64,000 nt of DNA from Kaistia algarum (GTDB lineage Bacteria; Pseudomonadota; Alphaproteobacteria; Rhizobiales; Kaistiaceae). Positions 28,507 through 50,428 of the stretch are shown here, in pieces; the first letter of the stretch is position 1, and each line of letters starts with the position of its first letter. The notes under the pieces were generated by a model. That model had not been told where the DNA came from and did not search any database. It worked only from the letters and a program-made list of their open reading frames with translations. The stretch spans positions 310,001 to 374,000 of the forward strand of contig NZ_JAPKNJ010000003.1 in the NCBI RefSeq assembly GCF_026343945.1, written 5' to 3'. Position numbers and translations under genes: made by a program.

Positions 28507-29007
28507 CTATCGTGGTGAGCGGTACTCTAGTAATTCGGCGAGAGGGTAGCCCTCAAAACGCTTGACAGTTTTCGTCACGACGTAGGTGAAATAGACAGAA
28601 ATGCCAATCTCTCGCGCCAGAAGATCATCTATGACTTCCTGATAGTGACCGATGCTTCTGGCGACGATCTGGAGGACATAGTCTATCCCGCCCCCGACTG
28701 CGTAGCAGTTGATGATCTCTGGAATGTTCTTCACCACTTGCTCGAACCGCATGAAATGTGCGCTCGTGTGGTATTGCAGGCTGAGCGTGGTGACGATGAG
28801 TTCGGTCTTGATGAGCCGCGCCAGGTCGATCTCGGTGTTGTAGCCCCGCACATAGCCGGCTTTTTCGAGCTTTTGCAGGCGGTCCCAGCAAGACGATAGC
28901 GACAGTCCGATCGCGGCGGCGAGGTCGACCTTCTTGATACGGCCGTTGCTTTGCAGAAGCGTCAGGATCCTGACATCTACCGCATCAAGCTTTTCCTCCG
29001 ACATCAA
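28507..29007 (-). CDS. Lrp/AsnC-family transcriptional regulator
   Basis: 166 residues. N-terminal HTH (LDAVDVRILTLLQSNGRIKK, LAAAIGLSLSSCWDRLQKL) and C-terminal RAM domain (FMRFEQVVKNIPEIINCYAV). A start at the second Met (29004) is equally possible. It sits at the 3' end of the Liv-importer gene string. AsnC regulators of this kind (such as DoeX) accompany ectoine-degradation genes, and an ectoine-hydrolase-like gene lies at 39711. It presumably senses an amino acid-like ligand. Confidence 0.92.
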   Translation of the reverse strand: MMSEEKLDAVDVRILTLLQSNGRIKKVDLAAAIGLSLSSCWDRLQKLEKAGYVRGYNTEIDLARLIKTELIVTTLSLQYHTSAHFMRFEQVVKNIPEIINCYAVGGGIDYVLQIVARSIGHYQEVIDDLLAREIGISVYFTYVVTKTVKRFEGYPLAELLEYRSPR

Positions 29008-30243: not shown

Positions 30244-31140
30244 TTACGGACGACCGCCTAGCACAGGCGCCGCATAAAACGGCAGATGCTCCGTGCGCGG
30301 CTGCCACGCCCCGGTCTCGATGAGGCCACCGATGTGATCGGCAATCTCGCTAAGGGTCGCGAACCAGACGTCGCCCTTCGCTTGCATATGCCGTACCAGA
30401 TCGCGAATCGCCAAAGCCTGGGCCGGACGCCCGCTGACGGCGGGATGCCAGACCGACACCCAGAGGCCGCCGAACTCCCACAACGCGTCGAACTCGGCTT
30501 TGTAGACCTCCAGCGCCTGACGCGGCGATGAGATCTTCATCAGATAGTCGAAGGCGCGGCTTGAAACATACTGGTTGTAGTCGTCGACCGAAGCCGGCAC
30601 GGACAGTTCCAGCAGGCGTCCCTTGCCATTGTCGAGCACGATCGGGACATCGTCGGCGAACAGCGAGGAATCATAGGCAAGGCCAGCTTCGATCAGCAGG
30701 TCGAAGGTCTTCGGCGACAGGCCGTAATAGGGAGCGCGATAACCACGCGGGCGGCAGCCCGTAGTGCGTTCGATGATCTCGATGCCGCGTTGCAGCGTTT
30801 CGCGCTCTGCCTCGACCGATTGTTGGTTCGGCCATTCGTGGAAATGGCCGTGGTGACCGATCTCGTTGCCATGCCGAAGGATCGCTTCAATCGCCGCCGG
30901 ATAGGTCTCCATCACCCAGCCCGGAACGAAGCAGGTGAGGGGGACGTTGTGGGCGGCGAACAGTTCGGCGAGCCGGGGCGTGGCGACGAAGGGATCGTAA
31001 CGCATATGCGCCAGCGCATGCGGCATATCGATCGCGCCAGCTCTGTGCGTCGCATGCACGACGCTGTCGGCGTCGACATCGAAACTGAATGCGACCGCAC
31101 AACGCGCCCCGTTGGGCCAGGGAGGCGGATTCCGGATCAT
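30244..31140 (-). CDS. Polysaccharide deacetylase-family (NodB-fold) hydrolase
   Basis: 298 residues from the ATG at 31140; the open frame continues upstream but the domain starts here (WPNGARCAVAFSFDVDADS). The NodB catalytic pieces are SFDVDAD (base/metal Asp), GHHGHFHEW (metal His residues) and RAPYYGLSPKTFDLL. It lacks a signal peptide, so a cytoplasmic amidohydrolase acting on a small molecule, in the manner of PuuE-type allantoinases, is more likely than cell-wall deacetylation. It lies between the importer and the P1 peptidase. Confidence 0.88.
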   Translation of the reverse strand: MIRNPPPWPNGARCAVAFSFDVDADSVVHATHRAGAIDMPHALAHMRYDPFVATPRLAELFAAHNVPLTCFVPGWVMETYPAAIEAILRHGNEIGHHGHFHEWPNQQSVEAERETLQRGIEIIERTTGCRPRGYRAPYYGLSPKTFDLLIEAGLAYDSSLFADDVPIVLDNGKGRLLELSVPASVDDYNQYVSSRAFDYLMKISSPRQALEVYKAEFDALWEFGGLWVSVWHPAVSGRPAQALAIRDLVRHMQAKGDVWFATLSEIADHIGGLIETGAWQPRTEHLPFYAAPVLGGRP

Positions 31141-31255
31141 CGGGGTCTTATCCTCAGGAAAGCCAACGCCGCTCGGGCGAATTCGAGCCTCTACCCTAAC
31201 ACGGTCGCCGCGACGGCAAGTCGGCGTAGGGCGGCCGCGTGCGTTGAAGAAAACT

Positions 31256-31975
31256 CTAGCTGGTCCGCACGCCGCCATCCATAAAGAGGTCATGCAGGTG
31301 GCGGGTGTCGATCTCGCCAGCGGGCACGTCCAGCGCCTCGCGGCCGCGCACGAGGACGCAGACCCGATCGGCGATCTCGAGCGCCTTGTTGACGTTCTGT
31401 TCGACCAGCAGGACTGGGATCGACAGCGTTTTGTGGATGTCCTGGATTGCCCTGAAGACGATGTCGACGGTGGCCGGGGCCAGATCGCTGCTCGGCTCGT
31501 CGAGCAACAGCACCTTCGGCTTCAGGAGCAGAGTCAAGCCGATCGAGAGCATACGTCGTTCTCCTCCGCTGAGATTGCCGGCGCGTTCGCGTCGCCGCTC
31601 CTTGATCCGGGGGAAGAGGGCGAAGACCTCCTCGACGTCATGCGCGAACTGCTTCGGCCGCAGGTAACCGCCCATGCGCAGGTTGTCGGTGACGCTCATG
31701 TCCTGGAAAACATTGCGAGTCTGCGGAACATAGCCGAGGCCGGCGGCGGCGCGGAGGTGCGGGGGAGCCGCCGTGATCGGCTTGTCACCCAGCGCCAGAG
31801 CTCCGCTTGTAACGCGGGTGAGGCCCATCGCCGTCTTCAGGACGGTGGACTTGCCGCAGCCATTGGCGCCGAGAATGGTGAGGATCTCGCCTGCGCGCAA
31901 CGTCAGCGAAAGGTCGTTGAGAACTGTGATCGTTCCGTAGCCGGCAGTCACGTTCCTCAGGGAGAGAATTTCCAT
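31256..31975 (-). CDS. livF: Branched-chain amino acid-type ABC ATPase (LivF)
   Basis: 239 residues. Walker A GANGCGKST, signature LSGGERRML, Walker B KVLLLDEPSSDLAP and the switch-His region LLVEQNVNKAL are present. Length and the C-terminus fit LivF. It pairs with LivG (10 bp upstream) on LivH/LivM. HAAT-family importers carry amino acids, amides, urea and other organic acids, so the name does not prove a branched-chain substrate. Confidence 0.92.
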   Translation of the reverse strand: MEILSLRNVTAGYGTITVLNDLSLTLRAGEILTILGANGCGKSTVLKTAMGLTRVTSGALALGDKPITAAPPHLRAAAGLGYVPQTRNVFQDMSVTDNLRMGGYLRPKQFAHDVEEVFALFPRIKERRRERAGNLSGGERRMLSIGLTLLLKPKVLLLDEPSSDLAPATVDIVFRAIQDIHKTLSIPVLLVEQNVNKALEIADRVCVLVRGREALDVPAGEIDTRHLHDLFMDGGVRTS

Positions 31976-31985
31976 GCGCCAGTTC

Positions 31986-32747
31986 CTAGGAATTTGCCGG
32001 TTGGCCGAGATAGGAACGGATCACGGTTTCGTTGCCGCGAATCTCGGCTGGGGTGCCTTCGGCGATCACCTGGCCGCCATCCAGCACGAAGACGTGGTCG
32101 CAGACATTGGCGATCATTTCCATATTATGCTCGATCAGGATGATGATCCGTCCTTCGTCGCGCAGCGCCTTGAGCAGCGCCACCTGTTGTTCGATCAGCA
32201 CCGGATTGACGCCCGCCGCCGGTTCGTCGAGCAGGAGCGCTGCCGGATCCGACATCAGTAGCATGCCCATGGTCAGCAGCTTCTGCTGCCCGCCCGAGAG
32301 GCTGCCGGCATAGTCGTTGGCCTTGTGGCCAAGGCCGAGTCTTTCGAGCATGGCGGTTGCGCGTTTGCTTGCCTGCTTTTCCTGCGCCTTGACCTTGCCG
32401 GGCCTGAGGAGCAGGTCGGCGATGCGCTCGCCACAATGGTCGCGCTCCCCAGCCAGCATGTTCTGGAATACCGTCAGGCGATGGGCGAGTCGGGGCACCT
32501 GGAAGGTTCGGCCAATGCCGGCTTGGGCGACCTTGTCGGGCCGGCCGATCGGCAGCGGCAGATTGCCAAGGGTCAACTGGCCGCTATCGGGCACATAGAC
32601 GCCGCCGATGACATTGAGCAGCGTTGACTTGCCGGATCCGTTGGGGCCGATCAGGCCGGTCACCGTGCCAGGTCTCGCCTCGATGGTGACGCCACGCAGC
32701 GCCATGAAACCACCGAAGGAGAGGGTGATGTCAGTCGCGCTCAGCAT
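31986..32747 (-). CDS. livG: Branched-chain amino acid-type ABC ATPase (LivG)
   Basis: 253 residues. Walker A GPNGSGKST, signature LSGGQQKLL, Walker B AALLLDEPAAGVNP and switch His ILIEHNMEM are seen. The longer helical insert and C-terminal GTPAEIRGNETVIRSYLG are LivG features. Its start overlaps the end of livM by 17 bp. Confidence 0.93.
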   Translation of the reverse strand: MLSATDITLSFGGFMALRGVTIEARPGTVTGLIGPNGSGKSTLLNVIGGVYVPDSGQLTLGNLPLPIGRPDKVAQAGIGRTFQVPRLAHRLTVFQNMLAGERDHCGERIADLLLRPGKVKAQEKQASKRATAMLERLGLGHKANDYAGSLSGGQQKLLTMGMLLMSDPAALLLDEPAAGVNPVLIEQQVALLKALRDEGRIIILIEHNMEMIANVCDHVFVLDGGQVIAEGTPAEIRGNETVIRSYLGQPANS

Positions 32748-33606
32748 CGTGCACCTGCTTCGCTTCGGGGATGAGGCCCTGCGGCCGATAGAGGAACATC
32801 AGCACCAGCACGAGGCCGAAAGAGGCAAGCCGGAGATTGGCGATCAGGTCGGGCGGAAGGTCGATCCACTGGGCGATGAAGCGGGACGACACGCCGAGCA
32901 GCTGGATGATCGCCGCGCCGAAGATGACGCCCATGTTGCGACCGGGGCCTCCGAGGATCACCGCGGTCCAGATGATGAAGGTCTCGGTAACGGTGAAGCT
33001 GGAGGGAGCCACGTAGCCGGTGATGTGAGCGTAGGTGACACCCGCCGCCGCGGCCATCATCCAGGCAATCACGGAGACGGAGGCCTGGTAGCGGATGGGA
33101 CTGCGGCCAAGTGTCGAGGCCAGGATCTCGTCCTCGCGCACCACCCTGAGCATGCGGCCATAGGGGGACGAACTGATGCGCTGGGCCAGCAGGAACGTGA
33201 CGATCAGCACGGCCACGGCAATGGTCATCGCCAGGATTGGATCGATGATGCGCGGCACGTTGAGGCCGTCGGCGCCGCCGGTTAACGCCGGGGTATTGAG
33301 AACCGTGAGACGGAATATCTCGGCCGCCCCGAGCGTGATCAGCGCCCAATAGTCCTGCGCCAGCCTTTGCGCCGGCATGATGACCAGCAGGGCGATGAGG
33401 GGGGCCGCGATCAGCCCGGCGAGGGCGCCGATCCACCAGGGATAGCCGAGCGAGGCCGCGATGCCGGCGGCGTAGGCGCCAAGCGCGAAAGGAAGGATCT
33501 GGCCGAAATTGACCAGACCGGTCATGCCGAACTGGATGTTCAGGCTTAGGGCAAGTATCGACCAGACCGCGATGATGGTGATCGAATAGACGGCGAAATC
33601 AAGCAT
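32731..33606 (-). CDS. livM: Branched-chain amino acid-type ABC permease (LivM)
   Basis: 291 residues from the ATG at 33606. About eight to ten hydrophobic segments; LivM hallmarks are SLNIQFGMTGLVNFGQ, VREDEILASTLGRSP and TAVILGGPGRNMGVIFGA. The longer open frame upstream overlaps livH and is not needed. It partners LivH in the inner membrane; the livH stop is 5 bp upstream of this start. Confidence 0.92.
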   Translation of the reverse strand: MLDFAVYSITIIAVWSILALSLNIQFGMTGLVNFGQILPFALGAYAAGIAASLGYPWWIGALAGLIAAPLIALLVIMPAQRLAQDYWALITLGAAEIFRLTVLNTPALTGGADGLNVPRIIDPILAMTIAVAVLIVTFLLAQRISSSPYGRMLRVVREDEILASTLGRSPIRYQASVSVIAWMMAAAAGVTYAHITGYVAPSSFTVTETFIIWTAVILGGPGRNMGVIFGAAIIQLLGVSSRFIAQWIDLPPDLIANLRLASFGLVLVLMFLYRPQGLIPEAKQVHDAERD

Positions 33607-33611
33607 GGCGG

Positions 33612-34505
33612 TTACCTCTTGGCCGCTGCCGCAGAACTGCGCGAGCGCAGCAGCAGCACAAGGACGAGCGCGAGGACCGCGACATAGTCTCGGAATTTCG
33701 TGGGGATGTGCCAGGGGTCGCCGAAGAGCAGAGTGCCGAAGTCGAACCAGATCAGGAAGTTCTGGGCCAGTGATAGGATCAAGGCGCCGGTCACCGCCCC
33801 GAAGACGTTGCTGAGGCCACCGATGGTCACTGCGGCGAAGATCGGCAGCATGATGACGAGATCCATGCTGGGCTGCAGGCGCGTCTGAATCGCAATCAGG
33901 GATCCGCCGATGGCAGCCAGACTGCCGGAGAGGAACCACATCAGCCGGATCAGCCGGTCGCCGGGAATGCCGCGCGTGACGGCAAGCTCCTGGTTGCTGG
34001 CAAGGGCGCGAAGGCCGGAGCCTATGCGGGTGCGATACAGGAACAGATGCAGGGCGACCATCAGCACCAGGGTCGCGCAGGCTATGATGACGTCCAGCGT
34101 CGTGAACACGGCATCGCCGACCACGATGGTGCTGCTGGGGACGTCGAAGACGCGTGCCGAGCCGCCATAGATCGCCGCGACGATCGAGCGGATGAACAGA
34201 GCTACGCCCCAGGAAACGATCATCTTGCCTTCTGCCGAGGTGTTGCGCAGCCGACTGAAGACGAGGATGTCGATGAGGATGGCCATGAGGCCGGTCATGA
34301 CCGCGCTAGCGAGCATCGCCAGCGGTAAGGGCAGGGCGAGGCCAGGAATGGTGGCGAAGCTATAGGTCAGGTAGCCGCCAACGACCGCGAACTGGATATG
34401 GGCGAAGTTGGCGAAGCGAAGGATCGAGTAGCACAGCGATACACCGACCGCGATGATGGCGATCTCGCTGGCGTAGACGATCGAGTTGACAAGAACCTGG
34501 ATCAC
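33612..34505 (-). CDS. livH: Branched-chain amino acid-type ABC permease (LivH)
   Basis: 297 residues, highly hydrophobic, with LivH landmarks YSILRFANFAHIQFAVVG, RALASNQELAVTRGIPGD and IFAAVTIGGLSNVFGAVTGA. It forms the channel with LivM. It lies 93 bp after livK in the same minus-strand operon. Confidence 0.93.
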   Translation of the reverse strand: MIQVLVNSIVYASEIAIIAVGVSLCYSILRFANFAHIQFAVVGGYLTYSFATIPGLALPLPLAMLASAVMTGLMAILIDILVFSRLRNTSAEGKMIVSWGVALFIRSIVAAIYGGSARVFDVPSSTIVVGDAVFTTLDVIIACATLVLMVALHLFLYRTRIGSGLRALASNQELAVTRGIPGDRLIRLMWFLSGSLAAIGGSLIAIQTRLQPSMDLVIMLPIFAAVTIGGLSNVFGAVTGALILSLAQNFLIWFDFGTLLFGDPWHIPTKFRDYVAVLALVLVLLLRSRSSAAAAKR

Positions 34506-34598
34506 GGGTGACAGCGCCGTTCCTAAAATAGGACAAGGATCGAGCCGCCGTCACGAGGCCCTGGGGACTTGTGGCGGCGGCTGCAGCGAAGGCCAGGA

Positions 34599-35717
34599 TC
34601 AGTTGCGGGTCGCCGTCGTCTCGAACTTGCCATCCTTGTAGGTCAGGACGTCGATCGGCGGATCGATGCGCTGGCCGCGATCGTCCCAGACGATCTTGCC
34701 GCTCGCGCCGTTATAGGTCTTCACGACTTCCGGCATGGTCTTGGCGATCGCGGCAGCGTCGGTGCCACCCTTCTTCATCGCTTCGGCCAGAACCATCATG
34801 GCATCATAGCCGTAATAGACATGGGCCAGGATGTCCTTGTCGCCGAATTTGGCGGCATACTTGTCCTGCACGGCCTTGCCGACGCCCTGCGAATAGCCGC
34901 CATTGTCGACGCCCAGGAGGCGGCCGTTCATCCATTCCTTGTTGTCGATTTCGAGGATTGAGGGATAGGCGGCGAACCAGGTCGCATTGATGCCGAGTTC
35001 GCGTACGTTGCGCAGGACGGTGCGAGAGTCATCGCCATAGCCCGCAGTGATGATCGCATCCGGCTTGGCCTTGACGAGGGCTTGCACGTCGGCGCGATAG
35101 TCGGGTTGTCCTTCGGTATAGGCAATATTCTCGACGATCTTGCCGCCCTTGGCTTCGAAGGCTGCAGAGGCTGCTTCCGCGACGCCGAGGCCGAAGGCGT
35201 TGTTGGGGACGACGACGGCAGCGGTTTTTGCGCCGCTCTCGGCGATGAGGTTGCCGAGTTCCTTTGCCAGAATGTCGTCGAGCGGCAGGATGCTGAACAG
35301 CGTGCCGGGATAATTGCCGAGCTTGGGTGAGGACGACGAGGTGTTGATCAGGATCTTGCCCTTGTCCCTGGCAAGTTCCGCCACCGGGATCATCAGGCTG
35401 CTGCCGCCGAACATGATGGCGGCGTCGACCTTGTCGACGCTGAAGAGCTTGGTGGCCGCGTTCATAGCTTCCTGGGCGCGGTATTCGGAATCCTCGACGA
35501 TCAGCTTGATCGGCCGGCCGTTGATGCCGCCGGCGGCGTTGATGTCATCGGCGGCCAGTTCGACGCCACGGCTCATCTGCAAGCTTGTCTTGACGTCCTG
35601 GCCCGTCAGGTTGGCGATCACGCCGACCTGGATCGGATCCGCCGCATGAGCGGGACCTTGCAGGCCGAGCACGGCGAGCACGCTGCAAAAGGCCAATGGC
35701 AACCCTGTCATCTTCAT
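34599..35717 (-). CDS. Periplasmic binding protein of Liv/HAAT ABC importer
   Basis: 372 residues with a signal peptide (about 1-25, cleaving near AHA-ADP). It is a type I binding protein of the LivJ/LivK/AmiC family: IQVGVIANLTGQDVKTSLQM, AADDINAAGGINGRPIKLIV and VYYGYDAMMVLAEAMKKGG. It defines what the LivHMGF importer brings in. The associated genes (P1 peptidase, NodB hydrolase, aminotransferase, M24 hydrolase) suggest an amino acid-like or cyclic amide/amidine compound rather than leucine. Confidence 0.92.
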   Translation of the reverse strand: MKMTGLPLAFCSVLAVLGLQGPAHAADPIQVGVIANLTGQDVKTSLQMSRGVELAADDINAAGGINGRPIKLIVEDSEYRAQEAMNAATKLFSVDKVDAAIMFGGSSLMIPVAELARDKGKILINTSSSSPKLGNYPGTLFSILPLDDILAKELGNLIAESGAKTAAVVVPNNAFGLGVAEAASAAFEAKGGKIVENIAYTEGQPDYRADVQALVKAKPDAIITAGYGDDSRTVLRNVRELGINATWFAAYPSILEIDNKEWMNGRLLGVDNGGYSQGVGKAVQDKYAAKFGDKDILAHVYYGYDAMMVLAEAMKKGGTDAAAIAKTMPEVVKTYNGASGKIVWDDRGQRIDPPIDVLTYKDGKFETTATRN

Positions 35718-36072: not shown

Positions 36073-37017
36073 ATGGCGCCACGCAAGATCATTATCGACA
36101 CGGATCCGGGGCAGGACGACGCGTTCGCGATCCTTCTGGCGTTGGGCTCCCCGTCCGAGCTGGAGGTGGTCGGCCTAACGGCTATCGCTGGAAACGTCCC
36201 GCTGTCGCGCACCGCGCGGAATGCCCAGATGGTCCTCGAGCTTGCTGGGCGGGGGGATATCCCTGTCTATCCAGGTTGCGAGCGTCCCATCGTGCGCCCG
36301 TTGTTCACAGCCGAATATGTGCATGGCGACAGCGGCCTCGATGGCTGCGACCTGCCTGAGCCCTCACATCCGCTGGCCGGCCAGCATGCTGTCGACTTCA
36401 TCATCGACACCGTCATGGCGGCCGAGCCGGGCGAGATCACGCTGTGTCCGCTGGGGCCGATGACCAACATTGCCATGGCGATGGTGAAGTGCCCGGCCAT
36501 CGTGCCACGCATCCGCGAAGTCGTGCTGATGGGGGGAGGCTTCTTCGAAGGCGGCAATACGACGCCGGCGGCCGAGTTCAACATATTCGTCGATCCGCAC
36601 GCAGCGCATGTCGTGTTCACGTCCGGCGTGAAGCTGACGATGGTGCCGATCGATTGCACCTACAAGGCGGTGATGACACCGGCTTGGCTCAAACGGCTGC
36701 GAGCCGTCGGCACCCACACGGCGATCCAGGCGGCCGGCATGGCCGAATTCTACCAGGAATACGGCAACCAGAAATTCGGCACCGACGAATATCCGCTGCA
36801 CGATCCCTGTGTGATTGGCTACCTGCTGCGCCCCGATCTGTTCAAGGGCCGTGAATGCCATGTGGAGATCGAGATCACGTCGCCGACAACCATGGGCATG
36901 ACCGTCGTCGATTGGTGGAATGTCACCAAGAAGCCGACGAATTGCCTCGTTCTGCGCGATCTCGACAATCCGCCGTTCTACGAACTGCTGCTGGAACGAT
37001 TGTCGCGCCTGCCGTAG
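36073..37017 (+). CDS. Nucleoside hydrolase (inosine-uridine preferring family)
   Basis: 314 residues from the ATG at 36073, where the family starts; an upstream in-frame Met would add only about 14 residues. The calcium-binding N-terminal signature DTDPGQDDA (9-17) is intact, as are LGPMTNIAMAM and LMGGGF. HDPCVIGYLL near residue 247 carries the last Ca-binding Asp. It cleaves the N-glycosidic bond of nucleosides or related N-ribosides in the cytoplasm. It is divergent from the Liv operon and faces the cofC stop. Its link to the island is uncertain. Confidence 0.93.
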   Translation: MAPRKIIIDTDPGQDDAFAILLALGSPSELEVVGLTAIAGNVPLSRTARNAQMVLELAGRGDIPVYPGCERPIVRPLFTAEYVHGDSGLDGCDLPEPSHPLAGQHAVDFIIDTVMAAEPGEITLCPLGPMTNIAMAMVKCPAIVPRIREVVLMGGGFFEGGNTTPAAEFNIFVDPHAAHVVFTSGVKLTMVPIDCTYKAVMTPAWLKRLRAVGTHTAIQAAGMAEFYQEYGNQKFGTDEYPLHDPCVIGYLLRPDLFKGRECHVEIEITSPTTMGMTVVDWWNVTKKPTNCLVLRDLDNPPFYELLLERLSRLP

Positions 37018-37245
37018 CGGGGACGGTTTCCGGCGGAGAGGAAATCTCCGCCGGTGTTCCTGCGCCTCGTCGGATCGGGGCGGCATCCCGCGAGCGATCT
37101 CGTGCGGTGGAACGCCTGCTAGACGAGGTCCAGCCGAGAATCCCGGCGCGCGGCGAAGCGCTCCGGCCCGGCCAGCTCGAAAGGCCGACTGCATCGGTAT
37201 CGGAGAGGCGATGGCCGGCGGCGGCGTGGTCGAGCCCGTCGCGGG

Positions 37246-37944
37246 TCATGATGCGACCTGCTGGAGCACGGGTTGGGGCATCGCAAAGCGGTCGGCCGAA
37301 CCTATGAGCGCAGCGAGGAAGGCATGAGTATGGGTCGGAGCCGGGCGCTTCATAAAAGCGGCGAGATCGTCTGGCCGGTCGATGTCGCGGGCAAGGTTTG
37401 GCAAGGACGGAAGCATCGGGACGATGTTACATGCGCGCGCCGCACCGTGATGGCGCGCAAAACTGCCTTCGCCAAAACCGAACGGAATGGCGTTCACGGG
37501 CGAACAGGCGAGGGCGTTGGTGCCACCATCGGCTTCGGCGGCAACAAGGGTAACCGCCGGGCCTGACCCATGTGCGTCAAGCAGGGCAACGATATCTGCC
37601 GGCGTGACCGAGGGCACGTCGGCTGGCAGGACCAGGATGCCACGGGCGCCGGTGTCGATCAGATATCGGGCGGCACGCTCGACGGCGGCATTGTATCCCT
37701 GATCGGACTCGTCGGCGATGACGCCGACGCCGATCTCGCTAGCCAGCGCGGCGATCGTCAGATCGGCGGTGACGACGAGCACGCCTGCGAGAGCGTCAAC
37801 CGCGATGACGGCCCGCAGAACATCCTCCGCCATGGCGCGAGCGAGGCCGGCGCGCTCCGTCGCGTCGAGCACCGGCGCCAGCCGCAGCTTGGCCTGTTGC
37901 AGGCGCTTCACCGGAACGACGCACCAGATCGCGTTCGCGGTCAT
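37246..37944 (-). CDS. cofC: 2-phospho-L-lactate/PEP guanylyltransferase CofC (F420 biosynthesis)
   Basis: 232 residues from the ATG at 37944, which overlaps the cofD stop by 4 nt. The nucleotidyltransferase start WCVVPVKRLQQAKLRL, the LVLPADVPSVTPADI strand with the metal Asp, and VTLVAAEADGGTNALACSP are CofC/FbiD family marks. It activates 2-phospholactate, phosphoenolpyruvate or 3-phosphoglycerate with GTP for CofD. Which donor is used cannot be read from sequence. A C-terminal tail of about 30 residues beyond the usual fold is present. Confidence 0.9.
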   Translation of the reverse strand: MTANAIWCVVPVKRLQQAKLRLAPVLDATERAGLARAMAEDVLRAVIAVDALAGVLVVTADLTIAALASEIGVGVIADESDQGYNAAVERAARYLIDTGARGILVLPADVPSVTPADIVALLDAHGSGPAVTLVAAEADGGTNALACSPVNAIPFGFGEGSFARHHGAARACNIVPMLPSLPNLARDIDRPDDLAAFMKRPAPTHTHAFLAALIGSADRFAMPQPVLQQVAS

Positions 37945-38912
37945 GCGGTGCCCCGCAGCCGCAGCGAGGCTGCGAAGTCCAGCACGGCACGGGCGAGACG
38001 GTCGCGGTCCTCCAGCGTATCCATGACTGCCCCGGTCACCGCGACGGGTACTTCGAGCGCGTCGGCCTCGGCCGCGTCCGCATTGTCGATGATCAGGCCA
38101 TCGAGCAAGCCGCGATAATGCTCCGCCACCGCGTGCACGGTCACGGGCAGGCCGAGCTCGGTCATGATCTTGGCGGTCGGCCCCTTGATGGCGCGGCCGC
38201 CGACGATCGGCGATATGGCGATAACGGGTGCAGGGGCCGCTTCCAGCGCCGCGCGAAAACCGGGCACGGACAGGATCGGATCGACGCTGAGATAGGGGTT
38301 GGACGGGCAGATGACGATTGCCGCGAGGGTCTCGTCGGCCAGCGCAGCGAGTACCTCCGGCTGGACGCGCGCCTTGCTGGCGCCCTCGAAGGAGATTTCG
38401 TTCACGGCGGGGCGGCATTGCTCCCCGACGAAATAGCGCTGGAAGGCCATTGGCCCGTCTCTCGTTCCGACGATGGTGCGGACGGAGTCGTCGCTCATCG
38501 GCAGCAGCCTCGCCTCAATGCCGAGGCGTGTGGCCAAGTCGCTGGTCACCTGCGAAAGCGTTTCGCCGGCCTTCAGTCGGAGCGTGCGCTGGACATGAGT
38601 GGCCAGATCCTGGTCGCCCAGCAGGAACCAGTTTTCGCCGCCGAGCCGCTGAAGCGCGGCCATGAAGCCCCAGCTCTCATTGGCAAGTCCCCAGCCGCGA
38701 TGCGTATCGTTGAGGCCGGCCAGCGTGTAGGTGACGGTGTCGATGTCGGGTGAGACATGCAGGCCGAGATGCTCGAAATCGTCGCCTGTGTTGATGGCGA
38801 CCGTCAGCCGGCCGGGGGCCAGCGTGCGGTAGAGGCCGAGCGCCAGTTTGGCGCCGCCGATGCCGCCGCAGATTGCCAGTACCCTGGCGTCCGATGTCCC
38901 TTCCGGAACCAT
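37941..38912 (-). CDS. cofD: 2-phospho-L-lactate transferase CofD (F420 biosynthesis)
   Basis: 323 residues. Family signatures: ICGGIGGAKLALGLYRTL, NTGDDFEHLGLHVSPDID, IVICPSNPYLSVDPIL and AISPIVGGRAIKGPTAKI. It joins the activated phospho-acid to Fo (7,8-didemethyl-8-hydroxy-5-deazariboflavin) to make F420-0. It overlaps cofC and follows cofE by 29 bp in one operon. F420 synthesis genes are standard in Archaea and Actinobacteria but patchy in Proteobacteria, so this is a notable cluster. Confidence 0.94.
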   Translation of the reverse strand: MVPEGTSDARVLAICGGIGGAKLALGLYRTLAPGRLTVAINTGDDFEHLGLHVSPDIDTVTYTLAGLNDTHRGWGLANESWGFMAALQRLGGENWFLLGDQDLATHVQRTLRLKAGETLSQVTSDLATRLGIEARLLPMSDDSVRTIVGTRDGPMAFQRYFVGEQCRPAVNEISFEGASKARVQPEVLAALADETLAAIVICPSNPYLSVDPILSVPGFRAALEAAPAPVIAISPIVGGRAIKGPTAKIMTELGLPVTVHAVAEHYRGLLDGLIIDNADAAEADALEVPVAVTGAVMDTLEDRDRLARAVLDFAASLRLRGTA

Positions 38913-38941: not shown

Positions 38942-39703
38942 CTATCGAAACATGTCTTCGGCCTTGGCGCGAACGAGCGTTGAGGCAGGAACAGGGGGCC
39001 TTGACCAGGACAGCCCACGCATCAGCACAGCGGGCTGGCCCTCGGACGCCTGTCCCATCAGCAGCGACGCTGCCGCCGCCACTTCGTCGGCGAGGCCGAC
39101 CTGCGTGATCCGGAGCTTGCGGCCGAACAGGTCAGGCTCACCGACGCAATCGAGCAAAGCGGGGAGGCCGGCGGCACCTATCGCCACGCCGACCGTGCCG
39201 TAGCGCCAGGCGCGGCCGAAGCTGTCGTTCATCACAACGGCCATCTCGACGCCGAAATGCGCCATCAGTCGCTGCCGAAGGGCTTCGCACCAGCCGTCCG
39301 GATCCTCCGGCAGCAGCAGCACATTCGTGTCGCCGTCGGTCTGTTCCACGTTGGACTGGTCGACGCCGGCATTCGCCATGACGAAACCGAGCTTGTGCGC
39401 GACAACGATCGCGCCGCGCCGATGCGCCACGACCTCGGTCGATTGCGACAGGATCACCTCGACGAGGCGTGGGTCTTTGTCGACGGCGATGGCCAGTTCC
39501 TCGGCGCGGGCCGATGGCACGACCTGCCTCAGATCGACGAAACGCCCCTCGGCCTTCGAAACCACCTTCTGCGCGACGATCAGGATCTCGCGCGCCTGCG
39601 GAACGATGCCGGCGCGCTCGATCGCTGCGATCAGGAGGGCGCCCAGGTCGTCGCCGGGTGCAACCAGAGGGACGTCCGGCAAGGAGGTGAGGGTGAGGGT
39701 CAT
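38942..39703 (-). CDS. cofE: Coenzyme F420-0:L-glutamate ligase CofE
   Basis: 253 residues, a stand-alone CofE without the C-terminal nitroreductase-like domain of actinobacterial FbiB. Recognised by ILIVAQKVVSKAEGRFVDL, GFVMANAGVDQSN and VVMNDSFGRAWRYGTVGVAI. It adds glutamate residues to F420-0 using GTP. It lies 7 bp after the M24 hydrolase gene and before cofD. The dehydro-F420 reductase and the Fo synthase (CofG/CofH or FbiC) are not in the window. Confidence 0.94.
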   Translation of the reverse strand: MTLTLTSLPDVPLVAPGDDLGALLIAAIERAGIVPQAREILIVAQKVVSKAEGRFVDLRQVVPSARAEELAIAVDKDPRLVEVILSQSTEVVAHRRGAIVVAHKLGFVMANAGVDQSNVEQTDGDTNVLLLPEDPDGWCEALRQRLMAHFGVEMAVVMNDSFGRAWRYGTVGVAIGAAGLPALLDCVGEPDLFGRKLRITQVGLADEVAAAASLLMGQASEGQPAVLMRGLSWSRPPVPASTLVRAKAEDMFR

Positions 39704-39710
39704 CGGCGTG

Positions 39711-40886
39711 TCACGGCTTGACGACCAGATCGCGGGGGAAGCTGGTCAGGATCTCGGGTGCTCCGGATGGGCGAACGCAGAATGTTTCGCTCAATTCGTA
39801 GCCCCAGTCATCCATCCACATGCCCAGGATCATGTGGAAGCACATATTGGCCTCCAGCACGGTCTCGTCGCCCTCGCGCAGGCTCGCGGTGCGCTCGCCC
39901 CAATCGGGCGGATAGTTGAGCCCGATCGAATAGCCGATCCGCGATGCCTTGTGATAGCCGGCGCGGTTGATGACTTTGCGCCAGGCCGCTTCGACATTGT
40001 GGCATGTCGTGCCTGCCCGGGCGGCATCCAGCGCCACGTCCAACCCCTCGGCGACGACCTTGGCGACATCCAGCAGGGCTTGCGGCGGCTTGCCCAGGTA
40101 GAGCGTGCGCGCCAGCGCCGCGTGATAGCGGTGATGGCAGCCGCCGAGTTCGAGATAGGCGACTGTGTCCTGCTCGTAGCGGTCGCCGGACCATGTCATA
40201 TGCGGCGCGGCGCTCTTGCGACCGCTTGGCACCTGGGCGAGGGCGGCAGGGTAGTCGCCCCAGAAATCGGCCGTGCCGTGGAACTGGGCCGCCGTGATCT
40301 CTGCCACCGCATCGCATTCGCGCACGCCGGGGGCGACAGCCTCCATGCCGACCGCCATCGCCTTCGAGACGATGGAGGCGGCCCCGCGCATCAGCGCGAC
40401 CTCGGCCGGCGATTTGACCAGGCGGACCCAGTTCACCAAGCCCTCTGAATCAACGAAGGATGCCTCGGGCAGCGCCTTCATCAATTCCAGATAGGCGCGG
40501 GCGGTGAAATAGAACGCGTCGAGATCGACGCCAATGCGGGCGCGGTTGCAACTGCGCTCGCGCAGCACCGCGGCGACGAACTGCGCCGGATGCAGGAGGG
40601 CCGAATCCACATGGGTTTCGGGATAGGGAACGATATTCTCCGGCCGGACAAACGTTGTCATGTGCGCGCCCGGCGCATCCATCGCACGGCCGATCCAGAG
40701 CGGTTCTTCGTCGTCGAGCGACAGCACCGCGTATTGATGGACATAGAACGACCAGCCGTCATAACCGGTCAGATAGTTCAAATTGGCCGGATCCGCGCAG
40801 ACCAGTACGTCGATCCCGGCCGCTATCATGCGAGCCTTCACACGGGCAATGCGGGCAACGAACTCGGATCGGCCGAAAACGGGCAT
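39711..40886 (-). CDS. M24-family hydrolase, ectoine hydrolase (DoeA)-like
   Basis: 391 residues of the creatinase/prolidase (pita-bread) fold. It resembles ectoine hydrolase DoeA along its length: DPANLNYLTGYDGWSFYVHQ, ARIGVDLDAFYFTARAYLEL, GYSIGLNYPPDWGERTASL and FHMILGMWMDDWGYELSET. The canonical M24 metal ligands (Asp, Asp, His, Glu, Glu) are partly replaced (for example LELGGCHHRYHAALARTLYL), as I recall for DoeA, so it is probably an amidine/amide hydrolase and not a prolidase. DoeB is missing from the window, so the substrate may be another cyclic amidine. Same operon as the LLM enzyme and cofEDC. Confidence 0.8.
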   Translation of the reverse strand: MPVFGRSEFVARIARVKARMIAAGIDVLVCADPANLNYLTGYDGWSFYVHQYAVLSLDDEEPLWIGRAMDAPGAHMTTFVRPENIVPYPETHVDSALLHPAQFVAAVLRERSCNRARIGVDLDAFYFTARAYLELMKALPEASFVDSEGLVNWVRLVKSPAEVALMRGAASIVSKAMAVGMEAVAPGVRECDAVAEITAAQFHGTADFWGDYPAALAQVPSGRKSAAPHMTWSGDRYEQDTVAYLELGGCHHRYHAALARTLYLGKPPQALLDVAKVVAEGLDVALDAARAGTTCHNVEAAWRKVINRAGYHKASRIGYSIGLNYPPDWGERTASLREGDETVLEANMCFHMILGMWMDDWGYELSETFCVRPSGAPEILTSFPRDLVVKP

Positions 40887-40892
40887 GGTGGC

Positions 40893-41816
40893 CTAGAAGA
40901 ACTCGGGGAGGGCGGCGCGGAAGCTCCGGATCGCGTCGATATGGGCCTGCGGGTCCGAAAGGCCGCCAATGGCCGCCTTGTTCCAGCGCTGCTCTTCCTC
41001 GACCCAGCGCTCCGGCATGGTGTTGAGCGTGACATGGGTTGCGCCGATGGCGCGCCAGGCTTCCAATTCCTCTCGCAGTTCGGCTGGCGTACGATCGATG
41101 ATCGTCATCGTCGCCTCTATGCCGATCTTGCCGGGATCGCGGCCATGGCTGACGGCGACTTCGCGCATCGCCTCGATGCTGCGGCGGCCGAGATCGTCTG
41201 CCTGGAAATTCGGTAGCCAGCCGTCGCCCAGCCGGCCGACACGCTTGATCGCGGCCTCCGAAATGCCGCCGATCCAGATCGGGATCGGGCGCTGTATGGG
41301 CAGCGGGTTGATACCGCCATCTTCGATGCGGTGAAACTTGCCCTCATAGGTGATCAAGTCGTCGCACCAGAGCTTGCGCAGAACGTCGATTTGCTCGTCG
41401 ATCCGCTTGCCGCGATTGCCGAATTCCTCGCCGCAGGCCTCGAATTCCTCCGGCTTGACGCCGACGCCGACGCCGAGGCGCAGGCGGCCGCCGCTCAACA
41501 GATCGACCTCCGCCGCCTGCTTGGCGACCAGCGCCGTGCCGCGCATCGGCAGCACGAGCACGCCGGTGACGAATTCGATGCGCTTGGTAACGGCGGCGAG
41601 ATAGCCGAACAGCACGAAGAGCTCGTGAAACATGTCTGCGGCGTCATGGACATATTTCCAGTCGGGGCGGCTGGCCTTGTTGAGACCGATGATTTGGTCG
41701 AAAGCCGTCAGGTGGGTGTAGCCGAGTTCTTCCGCCGTGATGGCGAAGTCGCGAATATGGGCGGGGTTCAGGCCAATCTCGAACTGGGGAAACAGGGCGC
41801 CGATCTTCATGTCCAA
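40893..41816 (-). CDS. LLM-class F420-dependent oxidoreductase
   Basis: 307 residues, bacterial luciferase-like TIM barrel. It matches the probable F420-dependent group by MKIGALFPQFEIGLNPAHIR, AAVTKRIEFVTGVLVLPMRG, LLSGGRLRLGVGVGVKPEEF and PIPIWIGGISEAAIKRVGRL. It is 6 bp upstream of the M24 gene and heads the operon that also makes F420, which makes F420 a much better cofactor guess than FMN. It probably reduces or oxidises the catabolic substrate before or after hydrolysis. Confidence 0.9.
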   Translation of the reverse strand: MDMKIGALFPQFEIGLNPAHIRDFAITAEELGYTHLTAFDQIIGLNKASRPDWKYVHDAADMFHELFVLFGYLAAVTKRIEFVTGVLVLPMRGTALVAKQAAEVDLLSGGRLRLGVGVGVKPEEFEACGEEFGNRGKRIDEQIDVLRKLWCDDLITYEGKFHRIEDGGINPLPIQRPIPIWIGGISEAAIKRVGRLGDGWLPNFQADDLGRRSIEAMREVAVSHGRDPGKIGIEATMTIIDRTPAELREELEAWRAIGATHVTLNTMPERWVEEEQRWNKAAIGGLSDPQAHIDAIRSFRAALPEFF

Positions 41817-42061: not shown

Positions 42062-43066
42062 ATGCTGCGATTCGGCTACAAGGCTTCGGCGGAACAGTTT
42101 GCGCCGCGCCAGCTCTTGGATTTCGCGATTCTGGCGGAGGAAGTCGGCTTCGACTCCTGCTTTGTCAGCGATCACTTTCAGCCTTGGCGCCATACGGACG
42201 GCCATGCGCCGTTTTCCTTCGCCTGGATGGCGGCCCTCGGCGAACGAACGCAGCGGATGACCATCGGCACCAGCGTCGTGACGCCGACCTTCCGCTATCA
42301 CCCCTCTGTTGTTGCCCAGGCTGTCGCGACGCTGGGTGCGCTTTATCCCAACCGGATGATCCTGGGTGTCGGCACCGGTGAATCGCTGAACGAGGTGCCT
42401 TCGATCGGCATCGAATGGCCGGGTTTCAAGGAGCGCGAGGGGCGGCTTCGCGAAGCTGTCGCTCTCATGCGCCGCCTGTGGACGGAGGAGCGGGTCTCAC
42501 ACCACGGCACCTATTACCAGACCGAGAACGCCACGATCTATGACCGGCCCGAGCAGCCCGTGCCGATCTATCTCGGTGCGTCTGGCCCCAAGGCGGCCTT
42601 CATGGCGGGCGAGCTTGGCGACGGCTTCATTTGCACCAGTGGCAAGAAGCCGGAGCTCTATCGTGAGACCCTGCTGCCCAACCTCGAAAAGGGGCGGGCG
42701 GCGGCCGGCAAGACGATGGCCGGGCTCGAACTGATGATCGAGGTGAAAGTGTCGTTCGACGAGGACGCCCAGCGGGCGCTGGAGGACACGCGCCATTGGG
42801 CAGCACTGGCGCTGTCGCCGGAAGAGAAGATGGGCATCGAGGACCCGGTCGAGATGGAGCGGCTTGCCGACGCTTTGCCATTGGAGCGGGCGGCCAGCCG
42901 CTGGATTGTCTGCAACGAGGTAGAGCCGCTGATCGAGGGTCTGCGTCCGTATGTCGAGCTCGGCTTCCGCCATCTCGTTTTCCACGCGCCTGGCCCGGAC
43001 CAGGCGCGTTTCCTCAAGCTGTTCGCCGAGCGCGCGATGCCGCGCCTGCGCGCCGAATTCGAGTAG
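42062..43066 (+). CDS. fgd: F420-dependent glucose-6-phosphate dehydrogenase-like protein (FGD)
   Basis: 334 residues, close in sequence to mycobacterial FGD1 from the first residues (FGYKASAEQFAPRQLLDFAI) to the end (HLVFHAPGPDQARFLKLF). Residues matching the FGD1 active site are all present: His38 and Trp42 (SDHFQPWRH), Glu107 (GVGTGESLNE), and the phosphate-binding Lys195 (CTSGK), Lys256 (SPEEKMGIEDP) and Arg280 (SRWIV). It should oxidise glucose-6-phosphate to 6-phosphogluconolactone while making F420H2 in the cytoplasm. The gene is divergent from the LLM/cof operon (245 bp apart). AGGAAGAA precedes the ATG. Confidence 0.92.
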   Translation: MLRFGYKASAEQFAPRQLLDFAILAEEVGFDSCFVSDHFQPWRHTDGHAPFSFAWMAALGERTQRMTIGTSVVTPTFRYHPSVVAQAVATLGALYPNRMILGVGTGESLNEVPSIGIEWPGFKEREGRLREAVALMRRLWTEERVSHHGTYYQTENATIYDRPEQPVPIYLGASGPKAAFMAGELGDGFICTSGKKPELYRETLLPNLEKGRAAAGKTMAGLELMIEVKVSFDEDAQRALEDTRHWAALALSPEEKMGIEDPVEMERLADALPLERAASRWIVCNEVEPLIEGLRPYVELGFRHLVFHAPGPDQARFLKLFAERAMPRLRAEFE

Positions 43067-43195: not shown

Positions 43196-44584
43196 CTAGA
43201 GCGTGGCGGCGACCTCGTCGACGGCCTTGACCGTCGCGGCGACGACGATGTCCGCCTCCTCGCGCGTCAGGCAGAGCGGCGGTGCGAAGCCGAGGATATC
43301 GCCCTGTGGCATGGCCCGGCCGATGACACCCTGACCGAGCAACGCGGCCGAGATGCGGGGACCAACCTTTTCGGCAGTCTCGAAGAACACGCGGTCATCG
43401 CGATCCCTCACGAACTCGACCGCGGCCAGCAGTCCCTCGCCGCGCACATCGCCGACGATCGCGTGACCACCGACCGCGTCGGCGAGGCTGGCACGGAAAT
43501 AGGCGCCGACATCGCGCGCATTGTTGACGAGATCCAATTCGTCGACGACCTCGAGATTGGCGACGCCGGCCGCCGTGCAGAGCGGATGCGACGAATAGGT
43601 CCAGCCATGACCAATCGGCCCGAAGGTATCCGAGCCCTGTTCCAGGATGCGCCAGAGCTTCTCCGAGACGATGACGCCGGAAAGCGGCGCATAGGCGGAG
43701 GTCAGGCCTTTGGCGATGGTGATCAGGTCCGGCTTCATGCCGTAATGATCGGAGCCGAACATCGAGCCGAGACGACCGAAGGCGGTCACCACCTCATCGG
43801 CGATCAAGATGATGTCGTATTTGTCGAGGATGGCCTGGATCGTCGGCCAGTAGCCGGCCGGTGGCGGAACAATGCCGCCCGTGCCCAGCACCGGTTCGCC
43901 GATGAAGGCGGCGATGGTCTCGGGGCCTTCGGCCAGGATCATCTCTTCCAGCTTATCGGCGCAGAACTGCACAAACTGCTCCTCGCTCAGGCTGCGATCC
44001 TCGCGGCGGTAGAAATACGGCGCCTCGGTATGCAGCACCGGCGCGCGTGGCAGGTCGAACAGATTGTGGAAAGCGGCTAGGCCCGTCAGGCTGCCGGTCA
44101 TGATGCCGGAGCCGTGGTAGCCGCGCCACCGCGAGATGATCTTCTTTTTCTCCGGCCGGCCGAGAACATTGTTGATGTACCAGACCAGCTTGATGTTGGT
44201 CTCGTTGGCATCCGAGCCGGACAAGCCGAAGAAGACGCGGCTCATGTGCTTCGGGGCGCGGTCGATCACCATCTTGGCGAGCCGGATCGACGGCTCCGAA
44301 GCGTGACCGACATAGGCGTGATAATAGGGAAGCTGCGCCGCCTGGCGGGCGATCGCGTCGCTGATCTTGGTGCGGCCATAGCCGACATTGACGCAATAGA
44401 GCCCGGCAAAGGCGTCGAGGCTGCGCCTGCCGTCGATGTCGGTGATGTAAACGCCCTCGCCGCCGGCCATGATCCGGTTCGGGGTATCGCCGCGCGCATG
44501 CTGCGCCATGTGGGTCGAGGGATGGAAGAAGTGATCCCGGTCCCAGGCGGAGAGTTCATTGTGCGATGAGGGGTGGTCGAGCAT
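43196..44584 (-). CDS. Class III PLP-dependent aminotransferase
   Basis: 462 residues of the omega-amino acid/putrescine-pyruvate aminotransferase subgroup. Key segments: DAFAGLYCVNVGYGR, LPYYHAYVGHASEPS, SRWRGYHGSGIMTGSLTG, ILIADEVVTAFGRLG (PLP Asp) and ITIAKGLTSAYAPLSG with the Schiff-base Lys near residue 290. It converts a terminal amine into an aldehyde with pyruvate or another acceptor. The aldehyde dehydrogenase gene 15 bp upstream provides the next step, as in DoeD/DoeC of ectoine breakdown. Confidence 0.93.
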   Translation of the reverse strand: MLDHPSSHNELSAWDRDHFFHPSTHMAQHARGDTPNRIMAGGEGVYITDIDGRRSLDAFAGLYCVNVGYGRTKISDAIARQAAQLPYYHAYVGHASEPSIRLAKMVIDRAPKHMSRVFFGLSGSDANETNIKLVWYINNVLGRPEKKKIISRWRGYHGSGIMTGSLTGLAAFHNLFDLPRAPVLHTEAPYFYRREDRSLSEEQFVQFCADKLEEMILAEGPETIAAFIGEPVLGTGGIVPPPAGYWPTIQAILDKYDIILIADEVVTAFGRLGSMFGSDHYGMKPDLITIAKGLTSAYAPLSGVIVSEKLWRILEQGSDTFGPIGHGWTYSSHPLCTAAGVANLEVVDELDLVNNARDVGAYFRASLADAVGGHAIVGDVRGEGLLAAVEFVRDRDDRVFFETAEKVGPRISAALLGQGVIGRAMPQGDILGFAPPLCLTREEADIVVAATVKAVDEVAATL

Positions 44585-44599
44585 GGCGAGTTCCTTGGA

Positions 44600-46099
44600 T
44601 TAGGCGAGATCGAGACAGGTGTATTTGAGGTCGGTGAAGGCTTCGAGGCCGTGGCGGGAGCCTTCTCGGCCGAGGCCCGATTGCTTGACGCCGCCGAACG
44701 GTATCGCCGCGCCGGTGATCTTGACGCGGTTGATCGCGACCATGCCGAAGTCGAGCGCGCGCGACAGGCGCAGCGCGCGGCCTGAATCCTTGGTCACGAC
44801 ATAGGCGACGAGGCCGTATTCTGTGTCGTTAGCACGGGCGATGACTTCGGCCTCGCTATCGAACGGCGTCACCGCCGCGACAGGCCCGAAGGTCTCCTCG
44901 CGCATAATGGTGGCGTCGTCAGGCACGTCGGCCAGCAGTGTCGGCGGATAGAAGAGCGAACCGTCGCCGTCTGCACCGACAAGACGCCTGGCGCCACGGG
45001 CCATGGCATCGCGTACCTGCGCCGCGACCTTGGCAACGGCGCGATGATGCATCAGCGGCCCGATGTCGATGCCTGGTTCGAGGCCGGCGCCCATCTTGAG
45101 GCTCGCCACGCGTTTCGTGAAGGCTTCGCAGAAAGCTGGATAAAGGGCGCGTTGCACGAAGATCCGGTTGGCCGCGAGGCAATCCTGTCCGGATGTGGCG
45201 AACTTGGCGTCGAGGGCGATGCCGGCCGCCCGTTCGACGTCGGCGTCGTCGAAGATGATCAGCGGCGCGTGGCCACCGAGCTCCATGACGACGCGCTTGA
45301 CGGTCGGTGCGCATTGCGCCGCGATCAGCCGGCCGATCTCCGTCGAGCCGGTGAAGCTGACGACGCGAACCAGGGGATCTCTACAAAACACACCGGCGAT
45401 CGTTGCGGCATCGCCTGTGACAATGTTCAACACGCCCGCCGGGATGCCGGCGCGCTGGGCGAGAACCGCCAGCGCCAGCGCCGATAGCGGCGCATGGGCC
45501 GAGGGGTGGGCGACGACCGTGCAGCCGGCAGCGAGCGCGGCAGCGGCCTTGCGCGTCAGCATGGCGGCAGGGAAATTCCAGGGTGTCATTAGGGCGGCGA
45601 CGCCGAGCGGCTCGCGATGCACCAGCATTTCAGTGCCGGGCAGATGGCTCGTCACGCTCTCCGCGTTCAAGCGTTTGCCTTCCTCCGCATACCACTCGAC
45701 GAAGGAAGCGGCATAGTCGATCTCGCCCCGCGCCTCGGCCAGCGGTTTGCCCTGTTCATGCGTCATGATCAGTGCGAGATCTTCGCGCGCAGCGATGATC
45801 AGGTCGAACCATCGACGAAGAATGGTCGCGCGCTGGTGCGGCAACAGGGCCTTCCAGGCGGGAAGCGCTCGGGAAGCGGCCATTATCGCGTCCTGCGCGG
45901 CCGCAGCGGGCAGGCTCGCTACAAGCGCGATCAAGGAAGACGTGGCCGGATCTCGAACTTCGAAGGTTGCGCCCGACGGCGCCGTGATCCAGCGGCCATC
46001 GACAAAGGCACGTTCTCGCAGAAGATCCGGATCTGCGACGTGACCCCGGATGGAGCTGTACGCGGTCCTTGAAGCGTGGCCCACATTGGCTTTCATCAA
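44600..46099 (-). CDS. NAD(P)-dependent aldehyde dehydrogenase (succinate-semialdehyde type)
   Basis: 499 residues. Catalytic Cys near 305 (ATSGQDCLAANRIFVQ) and general-base Glu near 271 (VMELGGHAP), plus PWNFPAAMLTRK, FTGSTEIGRLIA and EETFGPVAAV, place it in the GabD-like branch. The GGVKQSGLGREGS end is typical. It likely oxidises the semialdehyde made by the aminotransferase gene that follows it. This is the first gene of the two-gene minus-strand unit; its start is the ATG at 46099, with a second Met directly behind. Confidence 0.93.
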   Translation of the reverse strand: MMKANVGHASRTAYSSIRGHVADPDLLRERAFVDGRWITAPSGATFEVRDPATSSLIALVASLPAAAAQDAIMAASRALPAWKALLPHQRATILRRWFDLIIAAREDLALIMTHEQGKPLAEARGEIDYAASFVEWYAEEGKRLNAESVTSHLPGTEMLVHREPLGVAALMTPWNFPAAMLTRKAAAALAAGCTVVAHPSAHAPLSALALAVLAQRAGIPAGVLNIVTGDAATIAGVFCRDPLVRVVSFTGSTEIGRLIAAQCAPTVKRVVMELGGHAPLIIFDDADVERAAGIALDAKFATSGQDCLAANRIFVQRALYPAFCEAFTKRVASLKMGAGLEPGIDIGPLMHHRAVAKVAAQVRDAMARGARRLVGADGDGSLFYPPTLLADVPDDATIMREETFGPVAAVTPFDSEAEVIARANDTEYGLVAYVVTKDSGRALRLSRALDFGMVAINRVKITGAAIPFGGVKQSGLGREGSRHGLEAFTDLKYTCLDLA

Positions 46100-50427: not shown

Positions 50428-50428
50428 C

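Follow-up and report, generated by a model that had tools for sequence, protein, structure and literature searches.

An FGD-family gene beside cofC, cofD, and cofE

We analyzed a 64,000-nucleotide stretch of the Kaistia algarum genome (contig NZ_JAPKNJ010000003.1, positions 310,001 to 374,000), referred to here as the window, and in it a forward-strand gene at 42062..43066 that we assign to the F420-dependent glucose-6-phosphate dehydrogenase (FGD) family. A first-pass annotation made from the sequence had described the 334-residue product as following mycobacterial FGD1 from end to end and as keeping His38, Trp42, Glu107, Lys195, Lys256, and Arg280, and both descriptions were borne out. The protein scores 461.5 bits against the NCBI FGD equivalog model TIGR03554 (cut-off, 420; residues 2 to 330) and is 56 to 58% identical to the solved FGD1 structures of M. 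tuberculosis and R. jostii (EC 1.1.98.2; PDB 3b4y and 5lxe), which it resembles in end-to-end alignment, fold, and catalytic and phosphate-binding residues. All six named residues are present and are fixed in 103/103 aligned rows, the phosphate trio of K195, K256, and R280 included, and the protein keeps 117 of 118 near-invariant columns, a count that excluded two haloarchaeal rows. From these data, we hold it to be very likely that the gene encodes an FGD-family member and probable that the product is active as such. Sequence and fold together suggest a true FGD that would oxidize glucose-6-phosphate and reduce F420. The setting differs from that of the FGD1 systems: the host and the nearest neighbor in our tree are both proteobacterial, and the FGD gene on an R. 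jostii plasmid adjoins gnd/pgi, whereas the window gene adjoins cofC, cofD, cofE, and an LLM gene.

Immediately left of the FGD gene, on the opposite strand, lie genes for an LLM-class oxidoreductase of the TIGR03619 family (40893..41816; 264 bits against a cut-off of 166.9), presumably the F420-using enzyme of the operon, and an M24-family hydrolase resembling the ectoine hydrolase DoeA (39711..40886; TIGR02993, 445 bits, under the cut-off of 613; 6twk, 355 bits). After a 7-bp gap (39704..39710) come cofE, for F420-0:glutamate ligase (38942..39703; TIGR01916, 246 bits against 180.65); cofD, for a 2-phospho-L-lactate (or phosphoenolpyruvate) transferase with FO as the acceptor (37941..38912; TIGR01819, 293 bits against 257.45); and cofC, for a guanylyltransferase (37246..37938; TIGR03552, 149.8 bits against 105), whose start at 37938 is an inferred one inside a longer open reading frame (37246 to 38418). 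The three keep 37/38, 61/61, and 17/17 near-invariant columns, respectively, with 3 of 90 cofE matches and 6 of 66 cofC matches excluded from the counts for length. Within 5 kb of the FGD gene, the window carries the three cof genes and a second F420-family LLM. The first-pass annotation had mentioned neither these cof genes nor the lack of an FO synthase. Beyond a 228-bp gap (37018..37245), there is a forward-strand gene for a nucleoside hydrolase, of the uridine/pyrimidine type by its closest relatives (36139..37017; NF052221, 294 bits, under the cut-off of 450; 6ba0, a cytidine/uridine-specific hydrolase, 260 bits), and then, on the reverse strand, a five-gene ABC importer of the branched-chain-amino-acid type (31256..35717; PF00005 and PF02653) with two ATPases (31256 to 31975 and 31986 to 32747), two permeases (32731 to 33939, as an open reading frame, and 33612 to 34505), and a binding protein (34599 to 35717; NF011933, 89 bits). 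Next to it, on the same strand, is a gene for a polysaccharide-deacetylase-fold hydrolase related to the allantoinase PuuE (30244..31185; PF01522; TIGR03212, 88.7 bits, under the cut-off of 424.6; 3rxz, 217 bits; 3cl6, 70 bits).

FO synthase and npdG are absent from the genome assembly

The window's genome (G000; 5.26 Mb in 10 contigs, completeness 100) carries intact cofC, cofD, and cofE, all over their cut-offs, and lacks the FO synthase step of F420 biosynthesis. FO synthase was not found in G000 at an E value of 1e-3 with hidden Markov models of cofG and cofH or with the CofGH protein of genome G028, a protein query that gave two matches in G028 itself as a positive control. Likewise, npdG/Fno, the gene for NADPH-F420 reductase, was not found in G000, where the best score was 27.2 bits against a TIGR01915 cut-off of 149.8.

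A related operon shows where these genes would be expected. Genome G018, of the same family, has the order hydrolase, importer, nucleoside hydrolase, cofGH, cofC, cofD, cofE, npdG, M24, and LLM; the window keeps this order and the strands, but where G018 has the 2.4-kb cofGH and npdG, it has 228 bp and 7 bp, respectively. The operon DNA of the two genomes is alignable in long pieces at 70 to 77%, and the proteins are 83% (LLM), 81% (nucleoside hydrolase), 71% (M24), 66% (CofD), 58% (CofE), and 46% (CofC) identical. No cofGH remnant was seen at the 228-bp gap, the best tblastn match of G018 CofGH in the window having an E value of 0.36. A candidate npdG remnant, a tblastn match at 39984 to 39706 (E value, 4e-15), was rejected; it covers an out-of-frame M24 stretch at the query start, and the remainder matched no better than an E value of 0.58. 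Since cofGH also adjoins cofC in G003, G010, G011, S. meliloti pSymA, and Agrobacterium rubi, it is simpler to assume that the window's lineage lost cofGH.

The absence is unusual in the window's order. Of the 47 genomes whose cofD match is strong (46 pass the cut-off, and G106 falls just short), 44 have cofH over the cut-off and 2 have partial matches (G154, a 78% complete genome, and G190, where it is broken); only G000 has none. In both genomes with partial matches, cofD/cofH are broken or cut off (G190:C156 and G154:C14), with a TAG inside the G190 cofD match. We take the combination of cofC, cofD, cofE, and an FGD gene without FO synthase to be a new form of the F420 system. In the literature surveyed, we found neither a natural FO auxotroph nor a proteobacterial FGD/F420-0 salvage cassette, an earlier mention of salvage being possible, and one review (PMC8498797) gave no match for scavenging, uptake, or excretion terms.

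A third genome of the family, G017, has the same operon without any cof gene inside it. Its LLM, M24 hydrolase, and nucleoside hydrolase are 81%, 70%, and 78% identical to those of the window, and its importer genes stand in the same order as in G018 and the window. Genome searches did not find cofD or cofH in G017; FGD-cofE stands elsewhere in this genome, together with an ABC transporter assigned to the "putative F420-0" families. The LLM orthologue is confined to G000, G018, and G017 among 28 family genomes searched (3/28). We read these three genomes as three degrees of cofactor outsourcing around a single F420-using operon.

On plasmids, we found no LLM orthologue at an E value of 1e-50 and no near-identical copy of the cluster covering 80% of its 15.9 kb. 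The S. meliloti pSymA fbi/cof cluster (CP130049, locus L065) resembles the window in grouping cofC and cofD with a TIGR03619 LLM, hydrolases, and an importer of the branched-chain type. It differs in having cofGH and npdG, in having no FGD gene in the 20.8 kb shown, and in its hydrolases, which are a dihydroorotase-like protein and an M20 deacylase; a transhydrogenase gene is also present. A genome-wide association study (PMC8407117) reports a link between nodule competitiveness and the fbi operon that some S. meliloti strains carry. On an Agrobacterium rubi plasmid (NZ_CP049208, L066), cofD-cofC-cofGH-cofE-npdG are mixed with 5-oxoprolinase-like, carboxylase, and aminotransferase genes, another case of an LLM with cyclic-amide hydrolases.

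Distribution and origin of the FGD gene

We placed the window FGD in a quick tree of 105 rows, namely, 103 on the FGD side (R. jostii and Nocardia among them, M. tuberculosis FGD1 not being a row) and 2 haloarchaeal TIGR03557 rows as the sole outgroup. The window protein falls inside the FGD side, with the haloarchaeal rows outside (support, 99). Its sister is a copy in a metagenome-assembled genome labeled uncultured Acetobacteraceae (75% identity; SH-aLRT, 99), where the locus order is FGD-cofE-cofD-cofC-cofGH. With 41 of 102 inner branches open, this tree does not settle the deeper position of the window row.

The first-pass annotation had presented an FGD outside Actinobacteria as a novelty, and this does not hold: Fgd was already predicted for F420 producers of the Alphaproteobacteria in a 2021 review, at which date FGD was still unassayed in that class, and among 397 sampled genomes of the window's order, 19 have an over-cut-off FGD. 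A scan across named genomes listed at least 596 stretches, and the best 80 of 585 were kept as named loci. Most of these 80 are from Pseudomonadota; 68/80 have one or more cof genes in the flank examined, and 23/80 have cofD without cofGH there, both counts covering the flanks only. The window FGD is ordinary in kind, an expected enzyme in an expected group. It shares nearby cof genes with the alphaproteobacterial FGD-cofE-cofD-cofC-cofGH operons but is divergent from its cof operon rather than inside it, and cofGH is absent genome-wide. Genome G028 has two FGD genes (loci L030 and L032), each beside its own cofC-cofGH and in different surroundings.

The annotation had also proposed horizontal acquisition, with the importers as its mark, and here it was only partly right. 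Because none of 13 same-genus genomes searched has an over-cut-off FGD, gain by transfer is likely, and the Acetobacteraceae sister points the same way, to a proteobacterial rather than an actinobacterial pool. The tree gives no support to direct transfer from Actinobacteria, the nearest neighbor being proteobacterial. The importers are no sign of transfer since the same genes, identically ordered, adjoin this LLM in the two relatives G018 and G017. Base composition was dropped as a sign as well, as the gene is unremarkable (GC, 0.646; GC at third codon positions, 0.806; window mean GC, 0.644). What stands of the original interpretation is a real FGD-type protein in a genome equipped to use F420.

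F420-0 salvage cassettes in the order

TIGR03868-type cassettes were first described from Actinobacteria. Thirteen of the 19 FGD genomes of the order (G017 and 12 of family f6) lack cofD and cofH (cofH, 0/13). Each of the 13 carries the F420-0 binding protein TIGR03868, which passes the cut-off in 12 and reaches 387.5 bits against 392.4 in G174. This protein, FGD, and cofE share one cassette in 12/13; the cassette of G258 is on another contig. In the five FGD genomes that do carry cofD and cofH, TIGR03868 matches do not exceed 128.5 bits. In the G029 cassette, the only one scanned with family models, the cut-off is passed by the binding protein, narrowly missed by the permease (436.7 bits against 437.35), and missed by the ATPase (330.5 against 372.4). 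Transport of F420-0 by these cassettes is putative, a proposal from the names of the family models. The FGD-cofE-F420-0 transporter cassettes at L029, L031, L114 to L116, and L118 to L124 usually adjoin a TIGR03842 LLM gene.

Outsourcing is thus common among the FGD owners of the order. The window's genome resembles those with a salvage cassette (TIGR03868/03869/03873, "putative F420-0 ABC transporter") in having an FGD gene without FO synthase. However, F420-0 salvage goes with CofE kept and CofC and CofD absent, and G000 has both cofC and cofD, with a best TIGR03868 score of 36.6 bits against the cut-off of 392.4; the outsourced step there would be FO, not F420-0.

FO scavenging and its alternatives

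With cofC, cofD, and cofE kept and no FO synthase in G000, the FO would come from outside. We propose that FO, the CofGH product, is released by neighbors and taken up by the cell, that CofC, CofD, and CofE turn the imported FO into F420, and that FGD, oxidizing glucose-6-phosphate, would recharge the cofactor in place of npdG, the predicted F420 reductase of G018. The resulting F420H2 would most likely feed the neighboring TIGR03619 LLM of the import-and-degradation operon. The gene content, the gene order, and the absence in this assembly are observed; enzyme activity, FO uptake, and the service of FGD to the LLM are our predictions from them. We lean slightly toward this explanation as a whole. 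The engineered yeast Sc-F420 offers a parallel: with CofC, CofD, and the CofE-type ligase FbiB and no FO synthase, it is reported to make F420 from FO fed in the medium (PMC10949242). That system is artificial, whereas the state in the window is natural and its FO supply putative. Another study describes FO in M. rhizoxinica supernatant (PMC11104420).

Several points weigh against FO scavenging. No FO carrier was identified in G000, which is also without the F420-0 binding protein (36.6 bits). The branched-chain-type importer was set aside as a carrier because it is also present in G018, a genome with its own FO synthesis. Low FO import is suspected in the yeast (PMC10949242), and a review says that mycobacteria are unable to scavenge deazaflavins (PMC12855090). 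The G017 FGD stands on a different tree branch from that of the window, CofC is just 46% identical to its G018 counterpart against 83% for the LLM, and the suggested partnership of FGD and LLM comes from their neighborhood. Finally, the state of cofC, cofD, and cofE without cofGH occurs in one genome only, so an assembly gap is possible.

Such a gap, a lost plasmid, or an FO synthase too divergent for the models would mean that the strain makes its own F420. The genome is a draft in 10 contigs, the case is a single one, and cofH accompanies cofD in 44 of the 47 genomes of the order. However, the cofGH site of G018 corresponds here to 228 bp without a remnant in the middle of a long contig, and three queries were negative while the controls were positive; we consider this explanation unlikely, though the strongest of the alternatives. 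Somewhat more doubtful is a lapsed pathway, in which cofGH and npdG were lost and cofC, cofD, cofE, and FGD are on their way out. Two pathway genes are indeed absent and no FO source has been shown, but the four remaining genes are open, their near-invariant columns are almost all kept (117/118 for FGD, 37/38 for cofE, 61/61 for cofD, and 17/17 for cofC), and gain of an FGD gene would be odd for a dying pathway.

Other alternatives concern the enzyme itself. The window protein could be an F420-dependent dehydrogenase that acts on some other alcohol or sugar phosphate, like Adf or Fsd. Fsd enzymes are reported to have broader substrates and to be similar to Fgd (PMC8498797), and a T. roseum protein whose PDB entry bears the title FGD is just 36 to 37% identical and, by alignment reading, lacks K195. 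Against such an identity speak the 461.5 bits to the FGD equivalog and the phosphate trio fixed in all 103 rows; Adf (1rhc), by alignment reading, has Ala at K195 and Asn at R280, unlike the window protein. We judge it improbable, about as much so as a lapsed pathway. A flavin mononucleotide-dependent LLM monooxygenase, with which the protein shares the barrel fold, is ruled out for practical purposes by the family score and fold ranking.

Possible function of the operon and wider meaning

Further genes lie on the reverse strand on both sides of this region. To the right are a class III aminotransferase (43196..44584; NF005684, 831.7 bits against a cut-off of 687), whose 79% identical orthologue adjoins the G017 operon, and a succinate-semialdehyde-dehydrogenase-like aldehyde dehydrogenase (44600..46099; NF008415, 585.6 bits, under the cut-off of 828), followed by a VWA/CoxE-like protein beside an 823-residue DUF5682 protein (46896 to 50589). 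To the left, a peptidase family S58 (DmpA-type) gene (29038 to 30165) stands between the PuuE-like hydrolase and an Lrp-type regulator (28507..29007; NF008370, 97.9 bits, under the cut-off of 233), whose 68% identical orthologue also adjoins the G017 operon.

The gene content suggests a nucleoside or N-heterocycle as the operon substrate, although several operon proteins score under their family cut-offs. We speculate about a reductive, pyrimidine-like route with F420H2 replacing NADPH: the importer would supply the substrate to the nucleoside hydrolase, the LLM would reduce the ring instead of an NADPH dehydrogenase, the PuuE-like hydrolase would open it, and the M24 hydrolase would cleave the amide, with the aminotransferase and aldehyde dehydrogenase perhaps acting last. 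That pair (43196 to 46099) is weak evidence for the pathway because it is widespread on rhizobial plasmids. In a parallel case, a 2025 paper on uric-acid clusters of Chloroflexota proposes that the purine ring is reduced by an F420-dependent enzyme of the luciferase family (PMC12507026).

The FGD gene alone, as an expected enzyme, is of smaller value; the interest lies in a genome able to finish F420 yet without the head-group gene, a part that the cell may obtain from its neighbors. F420 biology is usually framed as "makes it or does not use it." A bolder reading, which we regard as a long shot, makes FO a shared vitamin of soil bacteria and the operon a new F420H2-driven reductive pyrimidine-type nucleoside route, held by one family at what may be three levels of self-sufficiency: full synthesis in G018, FO scavenging with CofC, CofD, and CofE in G000, and F420-0 scavenging with CofE alone in G017. 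For the F420-0 cassettes, the 13/13 pattern is an independent test of the proposed transporter outside the group of its naming. Should FO scavenging occur in nature, counting F420 users by their biosynthesis genes misses real users, FO would be a traded vitamin, and the order would supply a series in which to test this, running from full makers through an FO taker to F420-0 takers, of which the first three have a single operon in common.
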